DNA from: an uncultured bacterium
Lineage (GTDB): Bacteria > Verrucomicrobiota > Lentisphaeria > Victivallales > UBA1829
DNA: 64,000 bases
Reading direction: 5' to 3'
Assembly (NCBI GenBank): GCA_902802585.1
Contig: CADCMR010000013.1
Location: forward strand, 1 to 64,000
Numbering within the stretch: the stretch's first letter is position 1; each line of letters starts with the position of its first letter. Position numbers and translations under genes: made by a program. This document shows, one piece after another, positions 7,554 to 15,705 of the stretch. Below the pieces are notes generated by a model. It saw only the letters and a list, made by a program, of their open reading frames with translations, was not told where the DNA came from and searched no databases.

Positions 7554-7661
7554 ATTCATGTAAAACTGTTCCTGCTGTCCTTTCAGCTCAAAATGAACAG
7601 TGCCTTTTTTTAAATTTATGTACTACGACACTTTTTAACCCTTAACATAATGGAGTTTTTC

Positions 7662-8279
<618 letters not shown>

Positions 8280-10148: not shown

Positions 10149-10616
10149 ATGCCTAATCCAATCCGAATCCTCTTTGTCTGTCATGGGAACATCTGCCGCA
10201 GCCCCATGGCGGAGTTCGTGATGAAGGACATGGTCCGGGCGAAACATCTTGAAAACCGGTTTAAAATCGCTTCTGCGGCTACCAGCCGCGAAGAACTCGG
10301 GAATCCGGTCTATCCGCCCGCGCGTCGAACGCTCGCCGAACACGGAATCGCCTGCACCGGACATCGCGCCCGGCAGATGACCCGTGCGGATTATGACGAT
10401 TACGATCTGATCGTGTGCATGGATCGAAGAAACATCCGCAACACGCTCCGGATTACAGACGGAGACTCGGAGCACAAGATCGTGCTGCTACTCGACTATG
10501 CGGACCGTGCCGGAGAGGAAGTCGCCGATCCCTGGTACACCGGGGATTTCGACGCGACCTGGGACGATATCGTCAGCGGCTGCGAAGGCATCCTCGCGCA
10601 ATTAACCGCGGACTGA
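10149..10616 (+). CDS. Low-molecular-weight protein-tyrosine phosphatase
   Basis: 155 residues, the usual family length. The phosphate-binding loop CHGNICRS begins at Cys11, with Arg17, close to the N-terminus as the family requires. The general acid is Asp127 in the late DPW motif. The cytoplasmic enzyme removes phosphate from tyrosine residues; relatives regulate capsule or exopolysaccharide kinases, but no such genes are nearby. Some arsenate reductases share the fold; the CX5R loop with DPW favours the phosphatase. There is no adjacent partner; a dispersed repeat follows. Confidence 0.87.
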   Translation: MPNPIRILFVCHGNICRSPMAEFVMKDMVRAKHLENRFKIASAATSREELGNPVYPPARRTLAEHGIACTGHRARQMTRADYDDYDLIVCMDRRNIRNTLRITDGDSEHKIVLLLDYADRAGEEVADPWYTGDFDATWDDIVSGCEGILAQLTAD

Positions 10617-10627
10617 CAGTCACCTCT

Positions 10628-10783
10628 ATCAATTCGATCGGAAGGATTTTCCGCAGATGGGCAAACAAGACAATACAGGAAGATTCGAGCGTGGCTGCAT
10701 GAAGGTAACCACCGAAAATCTTCCTAATCGGGATTTGCCCGGATGCGAAAAGCCGCCGAGCTCCAATTAAGAGAGGCGCCCTA
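10628..10783. repeat. Dispersed ~155-bp element, copy 1
   Basis: This stretch matches 39325-39480 at roughly 80% by eye, in the same orientation. Blocks such as GAAGGTAACCACCGAAAATC and TTTGCCCGGATGCGAAAAGC are identical. It contains GGAAGATT and AATCTTCC, which can pair. Both copies lie next to accessory genes. No open frame is conserved, so a structured RNA, a mobile-element end or a miniature repeat are all possible. Confidence 0.65.
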
Positions 10784-10850
10784 AAGAAAGAAACCGTGTT
10801 TTTTTGAGGCGGAAATCAAAAGAAACACAAAAAAATTAGTCGAAACTAAC

Positions 10851-10878
10851 TTGCAATCTGCGAAAAACGTGATATAGT
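10851..10878 (+). promoter_or_regulatory. Promoter of the structured RNA / feo leader
   Basis: TTGCAA (10851-10856), 16-bp spacer, TATAGT (10873-10878). Predicted start is near 10885, about ten bases before the first long helix. Confidence 0.6.
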
Positions 10879-10895
10879 ATTTACAGGACATCAAG

Positions 10896-11075
10896 AGTCC
10901 CGGAACCATTCAACGATGCGCCGGTGCATGGCGCGCCGTTTTCCCAAAAGGGAGAGTGTGGAAAGGGACCGGTGGGATGTTCGGGTCCGCGCTTGCGGAA
11001 ACGAGCTGAACGCCGGTTAGGGTATGCAGGCGCGAATCCGGTTTCCTGCCGGGTGCGCGGGATGGTTCCGGGACT
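10896..11075 (+). ncRNA. Strongly structured RNA, unidentified class
   Basis: A 14-bp perfect closing helix joins 10896-10909 to 11062-11075. Inside it: 10931-10937 with 11052-11058 (seven pairs, one G-U); ACCGG/CCGGT (10968-10972 with 11013-11017) enclosing GTTC/GAAC (10979-10982, 11008-11011) and TCCGC-GCTT-GCGGA (10986-10999); and GCAGG/CCTGC (11026-11030, 11045-11049). About 180 nt, with its own promoter upstream. I could not match it to 6S, SRP, tmRNA, RNase P or a known riboswitch consensus. No clear terminator separates it from feoA, so it may be the 5' leader of feoAB or a separate small RNA. Confidence 0.55.
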
Positions 11076-11255
11076 TGTCTTTCGCTCGTTTCACAACCTT
11101 GTCAAAAAAGGATTTGTTCGGTTCTTTACAGTTAGGCAAAACAAAGTTTGAAATCAAAAACTGTTATACATATCACAAACAAAAAAGAGGATTGACCGGC
11201 AGCGTGAACACATGGCACGCATCGTTCCGGGACTTTCCAAGAAAGGGGTTCTGCA

Positions 11256-11567
11256 ATGTCTGAAAAAAAATGTTCCTGCGGATGCGGATGCGACGCCTCG
11301 AAGACGCCGGACTACCGCGTCCCGGTCGCGGGGGAGGAAATGACGCTCGCCGACCTTCCGGTTGGAATGACCGCGACCATCGTGAAAGTCATGCCGAAGG
11401 CACGCGGCCGCAAGAAATTCGCCGACGTCGGGCTGGTCCCCGGCACCGAACTGCTCATGGAGGCGCATGCGCCGTTCGGCGGCCTGATCCGCGTGAAAAT
11501 CATGGAGACGAGCATGGCGCTGCACAGCAGCGACGCCGCGAACATCGTGCTGAAAAAGGAGGCGTGA
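11256..11567 (+). CDS. feoA: Ferrous iron transport protein A (FeoA)
   Basis: 103 residues. A Cys-rich tail (KKCSCGCGC, residues 4-12) precedes an SH3-like FeoA domain with MTLADLPVGMTATI and a strongly conserved centre (RKKFADVGLVPGTELLMEAHAPFGG, split over about 52-77). FeoA is a small cytoplasmic partner needed for Fe(II) uptake by FeoB. GAAAGG lies upstream of the ATG. feoB starts three bases after the stop, with AAGGAGG inside the feoA end, so the two form an operon. The N-terminal Cys cluster is unusual and may bind metal. Confidence 0.92.
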   Translation: MSEKKCSCGCGCDASKTPDYRVPVAGEEMTLADLPVGMTATIVKVMPKARGRKKFADVGLVPGTELLMEAHAPFGGLIRVKIMETSMALHSSDAANIVLKKEA

Positions 11568-11570
11568 CCG

Positions 11571-13910
11571 ATGAAACAGCATTACAGGGTCGCGCTCGCG
11601 GGCAATCCGAACTGCGGCAAGACCTGCATTTTCAACGCCCTGACCGGCGCACGCCAGCATGTCGGCAACTACCCCGGCGTGACCGTCGAGAGCAAGAGCG
11701 GCAAGTTCACGCTGAACGGCATGGAGATCGAGCTGATCGACCTGCCGGGCGTATATTCGCTTTCCTCGTCCTCTCCCGAGGAGGACGTCGTGTTCCAGGA
11801 GCTGACCAAGCCGGGGATCGACCTGATCATCGACGTGGTGGACTCGTCCATCCCGCGCCGCAGCCTATACCTCACGACCCAGCTCGCCGAACTCCACATC
11901 CCGATGGTCCTGGCGTTCAATATGAGCGACGACGCCCGCCGCAAGGGCTTCAAGTTCGACATCCCGAAACTGGAGAAGTATTTCGGATCCCCGATCGCGC
12001 AGACCGTCGGCAGCAAGATCGGCGGCGTGCGGCCTCTGCTCGACCTGCTCGCGAAGACGTTGACCGAGCTTGACGACCACGGCGTGCCCATGCTGACCTA
12101 CGGCGAGGACATCGACGACGCGATCAAGGCGGTCGCCGACAAGATTGATTCGCTCAAGGTCGAAAAATACGCCCACATCCCGGCGCGGTTCTTCGCTATC
12201 AAACTGCTGGAGCACGACACCGCCGCCATGCGCATCGAGGACTTCAAGCCCGCGATGGACGAGGTGGAGAAGCAGATCGCGCACCTCTGGGAGAAACACG
12301 CCATCGAGGCGGACACCTTCATGGCGGACCGCCGTTACGCCATGCTCGCCGGCGCCTGCCGTGACGCCATTTCCATGACGCAGGAACGCCGCCGCGAAAT
12401 CTCCGACAAGATCGACGCTGTGATGACCAACAAATACCTCGGCCTGCCGCTCTTCTTCCTCATCATCTACCTCACGTTCTGGTTCACGTTCACGCTCGCC
12501 GACCCGCTCATGGGCATCATCGAGGACGACATCTTCGGCAACCTGAACGACGCGGTGAAAGCCGCCTGGAACCCCGAAACGCTCCCGTTCCTGCGTTCGC
12601 TCCTCACCGACGGCGTGATCAGCGGCGTCGGCGGCGTGCTGGTCTTCCTGCCGAACATCCTCTTCCTCTTCTTCGCGATCGCGATCCTGGAGGATTCCGG
12701 CTACATGGCGCGTGCGGCATTCGTCATGGACGGCATCATGCGCAAGTTCGGGTTGCAGGGGCGCTCGTTCGTCCCGCTGGTGCTCGGATTCGGCTGTTCC
12801 GTGCCCGCCATCATGGCGACGCGCACGATCGAGTCCGAACGTGACCGCAAGACCACGATCATGGTCCTGCCGCTGATGAGCTGCGGCGCTCGCCTGCCGA
12901 TCTACGCGCTCATCATCCCGGCGTTCTTCGTGCAGAAATACCAGGCGTTCGTAATGTGGCTCATGTACTTCATCGGCGTGGTCATCGCGCTCATCGCCGC
13001 CCGCATCATGAAGTCCACGCTCTTCAAGGGCGACGGCGAAGTCTACCTCATGGAGCTCCCGCCGTACCGCGTGCCGACCCTCCGCAGCCTGCTGCTCCAC
13101 ATGTGGGACCGCGGCCGCATGTATCTGCAGAAAGCCGGTACGATCATCCTCGCCACGAGCGTGATCCTGTACATCTGCAACACGTACCCGGAGAAGAAGG
13201 AATTCTCGAAGGACTACGAGGGCGAGATCGCGAAGATCGAGGAATCGCAACTCTTGACCGACGTCCAGGTCGCCGTGCTGGAAGCCGCCGCGCAGACCGA
13301 AGAGCTTGCGGAGATATTCGATGAAGACGTGATGAAGGAAGTCAAGGAGAACAAGGTCGTCCCGGACGAGGCGCTTGAGGCGCTCGGCGAGGCGGAGGAT
13401 CTGGAGCTTGCCGAGGAAGTGCAGTCGGTCATCGACGCCGCGCAGGAACGCGCCGACGCTATTGCCGCGCTCGAAAACGAGCAGATGGCGGAGGCGATGG
13501 AATACACGATCTCCGGACGCGTCGGGCACACGCTCGAACCTCTGTTCAAGCCCATCGGATTCGACTGGAAGCTGACGACCGCGTCCATCGGCGCGCTCGC
13601 CGCCAAGGAAGTCTTCGTGGCACAGCTCGGCATCCTGTATTCCGAGGGCGAGGCGGACGAGGAGTCCGTGCCCCTGCGCGAACAACTCGTGAAGAACTAC
13701 ACGCCGCTGCAGGGATTCTGCATCATGCTCTTCTGCCTGCTGTCGATCCCGTGCCTCGCCACGCTCGCCATCATCCGCCGCGAACTCAACTCCTGGTCGA
13801 TGCCGTTCATCGAGGCGGGCGGACTGCTCGCGCTGGCGTACATCTTGACAATGATCGTGTACCAGGCCGGGTCCGCGCTGCAGATTGGCACGAAACTGCT
13901 GGGCTCGTGA
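11571..13910 (+). CDS. feoB: Ferrous iron transporter FeoB
   Basis: 779 residues. N-terminal G domain: GNPNCGKT (11-18), DLPG (57-60) and NMSD (117-120), the NMxD form usual in FeoB. A helical GDI-like segment follows, then membrane helices from about residue 290 with Gate motifs (for example GFGCSVPAIMATR). An acidic, Ala/Glu-rich extramembrane insert (about 545-640, much of it coiled-coil-like) is longer than in the E. coli protein. It imports Fe(II) across the inner membrane. feoA lies directly upstream, a terminator follows, and an iron regulator gene is encoded convergently. Confidence 0.93.
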   Translation: MKQHYRVALAGNPNCGKTCIFNALTGARQHVGNYPGVTVESKSGKFTLNGMEIELIDLPGVYSLSSSSPEEDVVFQELTKPGIDLIIDVVDSSIPRRSLYLTTQLAELHIPMVLAFNMSDDARRKGFKFDIPKLEKYFGSPIAQTVGSKIGGVRPLLDLLAKTLTELDDHGVPMLTYGEDIDDAIKAVADKIDSLKVEKYAHIPARFFAIKLLEHDTAAMRIEDFKPAMDEVEKQIAHLWEKHAIEADTFMADRRYAMLAGACRDAISMTQERRREISDKIDAVMTNKYLGLPLFFLIIYLTFWFTFTLADPLMGIIEDDIFGNLNDAVKAAWNPETLPFLRSLLTDGVISGVGGVLVFLPNILFLFFAIAILEDSGYMARAAFVMDGIMRKFGLQGRSFVPLVLGFGCSVPAIMATRTIESERDRKTTIMVLPLMSCGARLPIYALIIPAFFVQKYQAFVMWLMYFIGVVIALIAARIMKSTLFKGDGEVYLMELPPYRVPTLRSLLLHMWDRGRMYLQKAGTIILATSVILYICNTYPEKKEFSKDYEGEIAKIEESQLLTDVQVAVLEAAAQTEELAEIFDEDVMKEVKENKVVPDEALEALGEAEDLELAEEVQSVIDAAQERADAIAALENEQMAEAMEYTISGRVGHTLEPLFKPIGFDWKLTTASIGALAAKEVFVAQLGILYSEGEADEESVPLREQLVKNYTPLQGFCIMLFCLLSIPCLATLAIIRRELNSWSMPFIEAGGLLALAYILTMIVYQAGSALQIGTKLLGS

Positions 13911-14179: not shown

Positions 14180-14839
14180 TCAGGCGGGACGGCACCAGAT
14201 GTTTTCCGCCTGGGAGGTCGGGATGTCGAGCGATTTGCCGTTGACGGTGATGCGAACGCTGGAACGGTCCAGAGAGAATCCCTCGACCGTTACTTCATCG
14301 CCGGGTTTCAGTCCGGTAACGGCGCCCGGCGCGAGGTTGCGTCCGAACTTCTCCACGACGGCTTTTTCGCCGGGCTTGCAGTCGGAGAGGACCGCGAGAC
14401 CGGGCTGGGACATCGCCTCGGTCAGATAGGTCTGCAACGCGCGCGCGTCGCTGCGCTTCGCGATCGCTTCCGAGAACAGGATGAACCGGCTGATGGTGTC
14501 GCAGTCGATGAGGTGTTCGAGGCGGCACGCGGTGTCCGACGCCTTTTCCCGGGGCAGCCCGAGGATTTCGGAGAAGAATTTCTGGAGCGTTTCGTGATGG
14601 TGCATCACGTCCTCCGCGATGAGCCTTCCTTTCTCCGTGAGCTGCACCGGGTAATGCGTGTTGTACACGATGCACCCCATCTTTTCGAGCTGGCGGAGCG
14701 CCCCGGTCACGGACGGCATCTTCACGTTCAGCTTCGCCGCGATCTCCTTGGCGTGGGCGTGCCCCTCGACCGCGATCAGCTCGGCGATCGCTTCGAGGTA
14801 GTCTTCCAGGCTTTCGGTCAGTTGCGGAATGTCGTTCAT
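14180..14839 (-). CDS. DtxR/MntR-family metal-dependent transcriptional regulator
   Basis: 219 residues from the ATG at 14839. An N-terminal winged helix (SLEDYLEAIAELIAVEGHAH, AKEIAAKLNVKMPSVTGALR) is followed by a dimerisation/metal domain with the expected His/Glu/Cys-rich segments (VMHHHETLQKFF; RLEHLIDCDTI). The C-terminal SH3-like FeoA-type domain (about 145-215) completes a three-domain DtxR architecture. Such proteins repress metal uptake genes when Fe(II) or Mn(II) is bound, so feoAB is the natural target (inferred; no operator was identified). The long upstream frame is not used: the promoter at 14941-14968 starts transcription inside it. The ATG has only a weak SD. Confidence 0.87.
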   Translation of the reverse strand: MNDIPQLTESLEDYLEAIAELIAVEGHAHAKEIAAKLNVKMPSVTGALRQLEKMGCIVYNTHYPVQLTEKGRLIAEDVMHHHETLQKFFSEILGLPREKASDTACRLEHLIDCDTISRFILFSEAIAKRSDARALQTYLTEAMSQPGLAVLSDCKPGEKAVVEKFGRNLAPGAVTGLKPGDEVTVEGFSLDRSSVRITVNGKSLDIPTSQAENIWCRPA

Positions 14840-14940
14840 GGGCGCGCTTCGGAAAAAGGTCGGCGGTTGTGTCGTTTCGGACGGGGTGAAATGAACGGGG
14901 AGAGACGGCATAAAACACTCGGTTTCTCCCTGCATGGAAC

Positions 14941-14968
14941 AATATACTGCGAAAAAACGGAAAGTCAA
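14941..14968 (-). promoter_or_regulatory. Promoter of the DtxR-family gene
   Basis: On the minus strand TTGACT (14963-14968), 16-bp spacer, TATATT (14941-14946). Predicted leader is about 95 bases. Confidence 0.65.
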
Positions 14969-15024
14969 GCGGCAAAAAGACGTTTTCCGCGGAACATTCC
15001 GGAAAAAATGAACATGTGCCCGCC

Positions 15025-15705
15025 TCAATCCCGCAAGAACTCCAGCACGACGCGGTTGAATTCCGCCGGATGCCGGTTCGCGATGAAATGGTTTCCCCTC
15101 ACGAATACGAGCTTCGCGTCCGGGATGCTTTCCGCGATCATCCGGGTGTGCGCTTCCCGGATCATGTCACGCGTCCCGGCGATGACCAGCGTCTTTGCCC
15201 GGATCCCGGCAAGTTCCGAAGGAGACACATCCGGCTCGTTCACCATCAGGCCGAGCATCTCCGCGTTCCGCCGGGCGGATTCGCTTTTCCCGGAGAAATG
15301 CCGCGCAATCCTGTAGCCGAGTTCAATCGGAATCTGGGTGCTTCGCTTTACGCCGTCCGCGTTCAGGTTCGCGCCGTTCAGCACCAGGCGGTCCACGCGT
15401 TCCGGATGCCGGATTGCGAAGACCATCGCGGTATTCGCGCCGTCCGAAAAGCCGAGCAGGTGCGCTTTTCCGATTCGTTGCTCGTCCATGAATCCAAGCA
15501 GGTCGTTCGCAAACTGACGTATCGTAAAGGGCATTTTCCCCCTCGGCGTCCTGCCATGTCCTCGGGTGTCAAGCGCATACACATGGTACAGTCTGGCAAA
15601 CTCGTCGATCTGCCCTTTGAAAAAAAAGGAATCCGCCCCATTCCCGTGAAGCAGGATGAACGCTTTCCCGGTTCCCTTTTCAACGAAATAATGCCTGATG
15701 TCCAT
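15025..15705 (-). CDS. Alpha/beta-hydrolase
   Basis: 226 residues. Alpha/beta-hydrolase fold with ILLHGNGADSFFF (oxyanion region, 17-29), nucleophile Ser87 in GFSDGA, Asp180 in GTRD and His206 in GNHF, a complete triad. It lacks a signal peptide, so it is cytoplasmic. The substrate cannot be assigned; relatives include esterases and C-C bond hydrolases. The start at 15705 is chosen because AGGA lies nine bases upstream and similarity to the fold begins there, although the frame is open further upstream. It reads in the same direction as the DtxR-type gene, which has its own promoter. Confidence 0.82.
   Translation of the reverse strand: MDIRHYFVEKGTGKAFILLHGNGADSFFFKGQIDEFARLYHVYALDTRGHGRTPRGKMPFTIRQFANDLLGFMDEQRIGKAHLLGFSDGANTAMVFAIRHPERVDRLVLNGANLNADGVKRSTQIPIELGYRIARHFSGKSESARRNAEMLGLMVNEPDVSPSELAGIRAKTLVIAGTRDMIREAHTRMIAESIPDAKLVFVRGNHFIANRHPAEFNRVVLEFLRD

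Follow-up and report, generated by a model that had tools for sequence, protein, structure and literature searches.

Metal riboswitches of the NiCo/czcD class are structured leaders that stand before metal genes and may carry a terminator, while 6S RNA is a long hairpin with a central bubble and paired ends. Among seed-pairing small RNAs, conservation of an entire multi-helix junction is unusual. The excerpted account of MrsI (ncRv11846) describes a small RNA of Mycobacterium tuberculosis that carries a box for IdeR, a repressor of the DtxR family, in its promoter and is expressed on iron starvation (PMC8628891). According to extracts of a second paper, the staphylococcal IsrR as well as RyhB, PrrF and FsrA are controlled by the iron repressor Fur, and some species carry duplicates of ryhB and prrF (PMC9410917). 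A structural study of IdeR, in the passages available, proposes the 14-bp TTAGGNNNNCCTAA as a single-dimer DtxR/IdeR site (PMC8464063). The consulted portion of a 2010 survey of structured RNAs contains one entry from Lentisphaerae, Acido-Lenti-1 (RF01687), and the main text of a 2024 survey of 50 genomes did not contain the words searched for. Among open-licence PMC papers, the searches returned no account of the RNA described here, of DUF3793 together with flavodoxin, or of a noncoding RNA in Victivallales.

The window analysed here is a stretch of 64,000 nucleotides from an uncultured bacterium of the Victivallales. Upstream of its feoAB genes lies a structured RNA of about 200 nt, which belongs to a family of 22 complete copies and one contig-end fragment, with one to three copies per genome. 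The locus has the following features:

10836..10853, plus strand: palindromic operator-like box TTAG-TCGAAA-CTAACTTG, which overlaps the -35 element and is found in 22 of 22 copies
10851..10878, plus strand: promoter TTGCAA-16-TATAGT of the structured RNA, from a promoter scan; the 16-bp spacer and a -10 of TATAGT or TATATT are kept in all copies
10885..11084, plus strand: structured RNA, with 5' GGACA pairing with 3' UGUCU outside the closing helix
10895..10911, plus strand: 5' strand of the closing helix P1, with double changes at 7 of 16 pairs and 98.5% of cells paired
11060..11076, plus strand: 3' strand of the closing helix P1, followed by a T-rich tract
10946..10967, plus strand: purine-rich core AAAAGGGAGAGUGUGGAAAGGG, the most conserved stretch, nearly unaltered in the divergent copy L067
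11131..11150, plus strand: second, degenerate box AGTTAG-GCAAAA-CAAAGTT, a pattern present in 22 of 22 copies
11256..11567, plus strand: feoA (Pfam PF04023)
11571..13910, plus strand: feoB (Pfam PF02421 and PF07664, FeoB_N and FeoB_C)
14180..15028, minus strand: DtxR/MntR-family metalloregulator with a FeoA domain, the candidate repressor (Pfam PF01325, PF02742, PF04023)

The first-pass annotation had described a highly structured RNA with a 14-bp closing helix, preceded at a fitting distance by a TTGCAA-16-TATAGT promoter and placed before feoAB, and each of these elements was recovered. Positions 10896-10909 (AGTCCCGGAACCAT) and 11062-11075 (ATGGTTCCGGGACT) are perfect complements over 14 bp, and the promoter at 10851-10878 is the sole promoter-like site within 10600-11300. 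Elsewhere in the window, the plus strand at 7650-8279 holds a protein built largely from repeated GQGGQRPAGQPGQGFGGFGG units.

The region 10885-11100 folds at -108.1 kcal/mol, compared to -83.1 +/- 4.5 for 200 dinucleotide shuffles, none of which folded as well (z -5.55), and its minus strand folds more weakly (z -3.55). The RNAalifold consensus holds 51 pairs in six helices. In the model-fitted alignment (A5, 21 copies, L156 being left out), 19 of these 51 pairs showed double changes against 6.4 after shuffling, a value reached by 0 of 500 shuffles, and 95.6% of cells were paired as opposed to 28-48% in slid controls. An alignment of 20 copies made with MAFFT and not fitted to the structure (A3; A1 and A2 hold the same number of copies) gave the same direction, with 10 double-change pairs against 4.6 when shuffled (0/500), while a measure based on further pair types was unexceptional (107/500 shuffles). 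The covariance model R1, built from 20 aligned copies, scored these on the sense strand at 153-202 bits, and the other strand at 32 bits or less. The best-conserved part is the unpaired strand AAAxGGGAGAxUGUGxAAAGGG, which is almost the same in L067, although in that copy the sequence of most helices differs and the closing helix is remade from different bases. A coding reading was rejected, as the open reading frame that crosses the RNA (10924-11151) is not kept and single-base indels separate the copies. A search of A5 for pseudoknots and alternative helices gave nothing convincing. On this evidence the structured RNA is almost certainly a real RNA gene family under selection.

The designation 'unidentified' also stands: the two checks proposed in the first-pass annotation, a search of Rfam and a covariation analysis of homologues, yielded no family match and compensatory changes, respectively. 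At gathering scores, Rfam 15 had no match in the 64 kb window; up to E=10 there was none inside the RNA, Acido-Lenti-1 included, and two chance-level matches begin beyond the closing helix, at 11080 and 11103. A stand-alone RNA of 6S size had also been suggested. The RNA shares with 6S RNA a similar length and paired ends, yet it is a junction of several helices. The 6S model RF00013 matched 0 of the 13 genomes of the genus (as a control it matched 5 of 14 known genomes), which leaves no 6S RNA of the genus for comparison, and the lax Rfam search returned no 6S match either, so that a 6S identity is unsupported.

BLAST revealed another copy within the same genome, at 74% identity, and further copies (61 genomes) across the genus, which according to its named records consists of rumen Lentisphaeria/Victivallales metagenome bins. 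R1 matched 12 of its 13 genomes at E 1e-8 or better, including the divergent copy L067 of genome G008 (45.8 bits, E 3e-9); a further search with the model added the contig-end fragment L115 of G012 (41.1 bits). The remaining genome, G006, gave a partial match alone (E 0.024). None of the 23 genomes from other genera of the family matched. Across the order (137 genomes) and the class (197), the sole match outside the genus was L156, on a 4.4-kb contig (C28) of G106, a genome that belongs to another family. This contig is probably misbinned from the rumen genus, because its hydrogenase-like gene is 86-91% identical to those of five genus genomes and 42-45% identical to those of family f4. A sample of the phylum (387 genomes) added one weak match in G359 (24.4 bits), which lies across the beginning of a gene that by eye looks like gap, lacks the core and was judged to be due to chance; the searches of order, class and phylum used stricter filters that can miss weak matches. 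A pattern scan of genome contigs returned 15 stretches, nine coinciding with genus contigs and six from other bacteria, and none of these six matched the model (E 0.01). Two scans of viral sequences gave three pattern matches, none fitting the model, and zero, respectively, and a plasmid scan gave no match.

Six of the 22 copies precede feoAB and eleven precede a DUF3793 gene followed by a flavodoxin gene, so that 17 copies lie upstream of iron-related genes on the same strand and five do not. The DUF3793 and flavodoxin assignments come from Pfam for L067, and tblastn found both genes in all eleven loci, at 65-73% and 83-88% identity to L067. At L067:310-1430 and the ten similar loci, an iron-type box is followed by DUF3793 and, immediately after it, flavodoxin.

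At the five orphan copies (L039, L046, L048, L050 and L156), tblastn found neither DUF3793 nor flavodoxin. They represent three loci, as L046, L048 and L050 have common neighbours, with convergent genes downstream. Sequence downstream of L039 resembles a decayed DUF3793 start by eye, where tblastn finds no DUF3793, and in a modestly supported tree the L048 RNA falls with the feoAB copies. In the ten pairs of orphans, identity was 0.69 in the RNA and 0.75 in the box and promoter, and 0.34-0.37 in the flanks. RNA and promoter are thus far more alike than their surroundings, which is taken as selection on the RNA gene itself; the orphan copies may, however, be young.

The -10 element of the promoter is TATAGT or TATATT with a 16-bp spacer in all 22 copies, which were also the basis for the tests of T tract, box spacing and orphan identity (the fragment L115 was left out of these and of the alignments). 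All five orphans carry a perfect TTGACA, and the distance from promoter to closing helix is 15-17 nt in 21 of 22 copies and 26 nt in L067. A TTAG-N6-CTAA box runs into the -35 element in 22/22 copies and keeps the layout of the one-dimer IdeR/DtxR site, as far as the available passages of the IdeR study define it (PMC8464063). Judged as a sequence match, a metal-repressor-type site is hence present at the RNA's own promoter, and together with the feoAB and DUF3793-flavodoxin neighbours it backs the link to iron that the first-pass annotation had raised. The regulator encoded at 14180-15028, about 3 kb away, has MntR as its best solved relative, followed by DtxR and IdeR. It is quite likely, judging from these sequence features, that a DtxR/MntR-type repressor controls the RNA.

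A second box, [AG]TTAG-N6-C[AG]AA, sits 52-56 nt beyond the closing helix in all 22 copies. The two boxes are inverted and face each other 297-302 bp apart in the 13 loci where both are exact. The idea that this distance is constrained beyond the length of the RNA was dropped, as RNA and spacer lengths are not compensatory (correlation 0.13, with the L037 box about 14 nt off in that comparison). The exact pattern AANTTWG-N6-CWAANTT occurs 40 times in the 13 genomes, against six times for the reversed pattern, and 35 of these sites lie at the RNAs described here, in part by construction, as it was these copies that supplied the pattern. The other five comprise one before feoAB in G006 and four (G001, G004, G007 and G008) located 220-640 nt before a secretin-like gene.

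G006, the single genus member without the RNA, shows the same plan with a different RNA: at L110 (G006:C33), a hairpin RNA of ~95 nt ending in U7 stands ahead of feoAB, with a promoter before it and a TTAG-N6-CTAA box after it. As G006 has feoAB and the box and no homologue of the RNA, such an arrangement can do without the RNA. Another class of leader precedes the secretin-like gene (L116, L112, L113, L114 and L111), consisting of a box, a promoter with TTGACA and TATAGT/TATATT, a hairpin RNA of ~60 nt (4/5 loci) and then another box, often a perfect one; several of these loci then show repeated palindromes around GGCATGAAGCCGTGCGGG. One member, L116, lies on the window's own contig (G000:C13:167858) and has a one-mismatch version of the box. 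In G001, feoAB follows the secretin operon on the same strand. Given these sites at feoAB and secretin loci, a DtxR-type box, a promoter, a folded RNA and another box recur at iron-related loci of the genus. Of 17 feoAB copies without this RNA, 16 (L140-L155) showed no such box in the upstream stretch of 1.4-1.8 kb before feoB, G006 being the exception. Eleven of these loci (L145-L155) represent a second type of feoAB, in which FeoB begins MSRKYRIVLAGN where it could be read in frame; their promoter region, TATATTATAT, is conserved, and the box is lacking.

At the 3' end, each of the 22 copies has a T-rich tract after the closing helix, the best 8-nt window averaging 5.7 T as compared to 2.2 in downstream controls. 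The tract is strong in some copies only: those at feoAB have the weakest, with 4-6 T in 8, and L156 has a full 8/8. The view that no clear terminator separates the RNA from feoA is corrected to this extent, but at the locus described here the tract is weak (4/8), and a strict terminator scan found none. A conserved second terminator hairpin between the RNA and the second box looked likely by eye and was rejected, as most spacers fold no better than shuffles. Likewise, no promoter of its own for the downstream gene was consistent among the 22 copies: three DUF3793 copies score TTGAAA-17-TATGCT and L067 scores TTCAAA-17-TATGAT, with a -10 that runs into the start codon; in the other copies it is weaker or missing. 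Where DUF3793 follows, the second box extends up to the start codon and leaves no space for a separate promoter; transcription of the mRNA therefore very probably begins at the promoter of the RNA, so that the message contains the RNA. The feoAB loci may have a separate weak promoter.

Taken together, I lean cautiously towards an iron-repressed family of non-coding RNA genes of ~200 nt, restricted to a single genus of rumen Lentisphaeria, whose product is released as a free RNA and is also read through as the leader of iron genes. Comparison of the copies shows the fold and its strand, the constancy of the promoter, the box at -35 and the retention of promoter and RNA at orphan loci. With iron (or manganese) in good supply, a repressor of the DtxR/MntR type, probably the product of 14180-15028, would hold the box and keep the promoter off; I infer both the identity of the repressor and its metal. 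When the metal is short, transcription would begin at ~10885, and the ends of the RNA would form the long helix followed by U residues, upon which part or all of the RNA would be released. That it acts at least partly in this free form, which is likewise inferred, I consider rather probable. At the feoAB and DUF3793-flavodoxin loci, some polymerases would read through, so that the RNA doubles as the 5' leader of an iron mRNA. The free RNA would act via its invariant unpaired purine strand (GGGAGAxUGUGxAAAGGG) and the joining strand GUUAGGG, for which binding of a protein or ligand appears more likely than classical seed pairing. The bolder proposal that this is a new class of large, junction-structured RNA, switched on upon loss of a DtxR-type repressor and acting in trans when free as well as in cis as the leader of iron-uptake and flavodoxin mRNAs, with the purine core binding a ligand or protein, is tentative and rather doubtful as a whole.

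The first-pass annotation had offered a leader and a stand-alone RNA as alternatives, and these options are not exclusive, as 17 of 22 copies stand before iron-related genes and the five orphans keep both promoter and RNA. A purely cis-acting leader, i.e. a riboswitch or attenuator that senses Fe2+, flavin or another signal and gates transcription of feoAB or DUF3793-flavodoxin, would account for the 17 same-strand positions, the lack of room for another promoter at the DUF3793 loci, the many-helix junction with its invariant unpaired strands and the T-rich tract. The closing helix is also predicted to persist within the longer leader in six of the seven leaders folded, with L067 at 0.5. However, the orphans retain RNA and promoter in the absence of such genes, no conserved competing helix or pseudoknot was found, and there was no match to a metal or flavin riboswitch in Rfam. 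The orphan copies and the lack of an Rfam match also set the RNA apart from the NiCo/czcD class. This possibility is somewhat unlikely.

It is distinctly less probable that the RNA is a small RNA of the RyhB/MrsI/IsrR type which base-pairs with mRNAs of iron-using proteins. The duplication of copies and the conservation of the orphans would fit, whereas an RNA that acts by seed pairing would not usually keep a complete junction of several helices. An iron-repressor-type box at the promoter is shared with MrsI (IdeR box) and IsrR (Fur boxes), as these are portrayed in the excerpts of the two papers. Compared by description, MrsI is nevertheless ~100 nt long with a six-nucleotide seed, while the structured RNA is ~200 nt, forms a multi-helix junction and lies mostly before feoAB or DUF3793-flavodoxin (PMC8628891, in part). 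IsrR, in the extracts consulted, acts through C-rich unpaired regions, whereas the conserved unpaired core seen here is purine-rich (PMC9410917). Finally, a DNA element, repeated or mobile, that has no RNA function and ends in two inverted box sites, as the facing boxes 297-302 bp apart (13 loci) in several genomic contexts might suggest, is very improbable in view of the compensatory base pairs, the G-U pairs on one strand, the fixed distance from promoter to helix, the boxes that also flank unrelated short leaders and the lack of a plasmid match.

Iron-sparing small RNAs arose several times, under Fur or under IdeR. A large, highly folded RNA behind a DtxR-type box would add another, structurally different solution, here from the little-studied Lentisphaeria. 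The analysis contributes a covariation-supported RNA family that Rfam lacks, and it ties the uncharacterised protein DUF3793 to iron control. The presence of orphan and gene-linked copies within one genus makes the question of leader versus free RNA directly testable. If the dual reading in cis and in trans is true, one RNA would couple transcriptional and post-transcriptional iron control.
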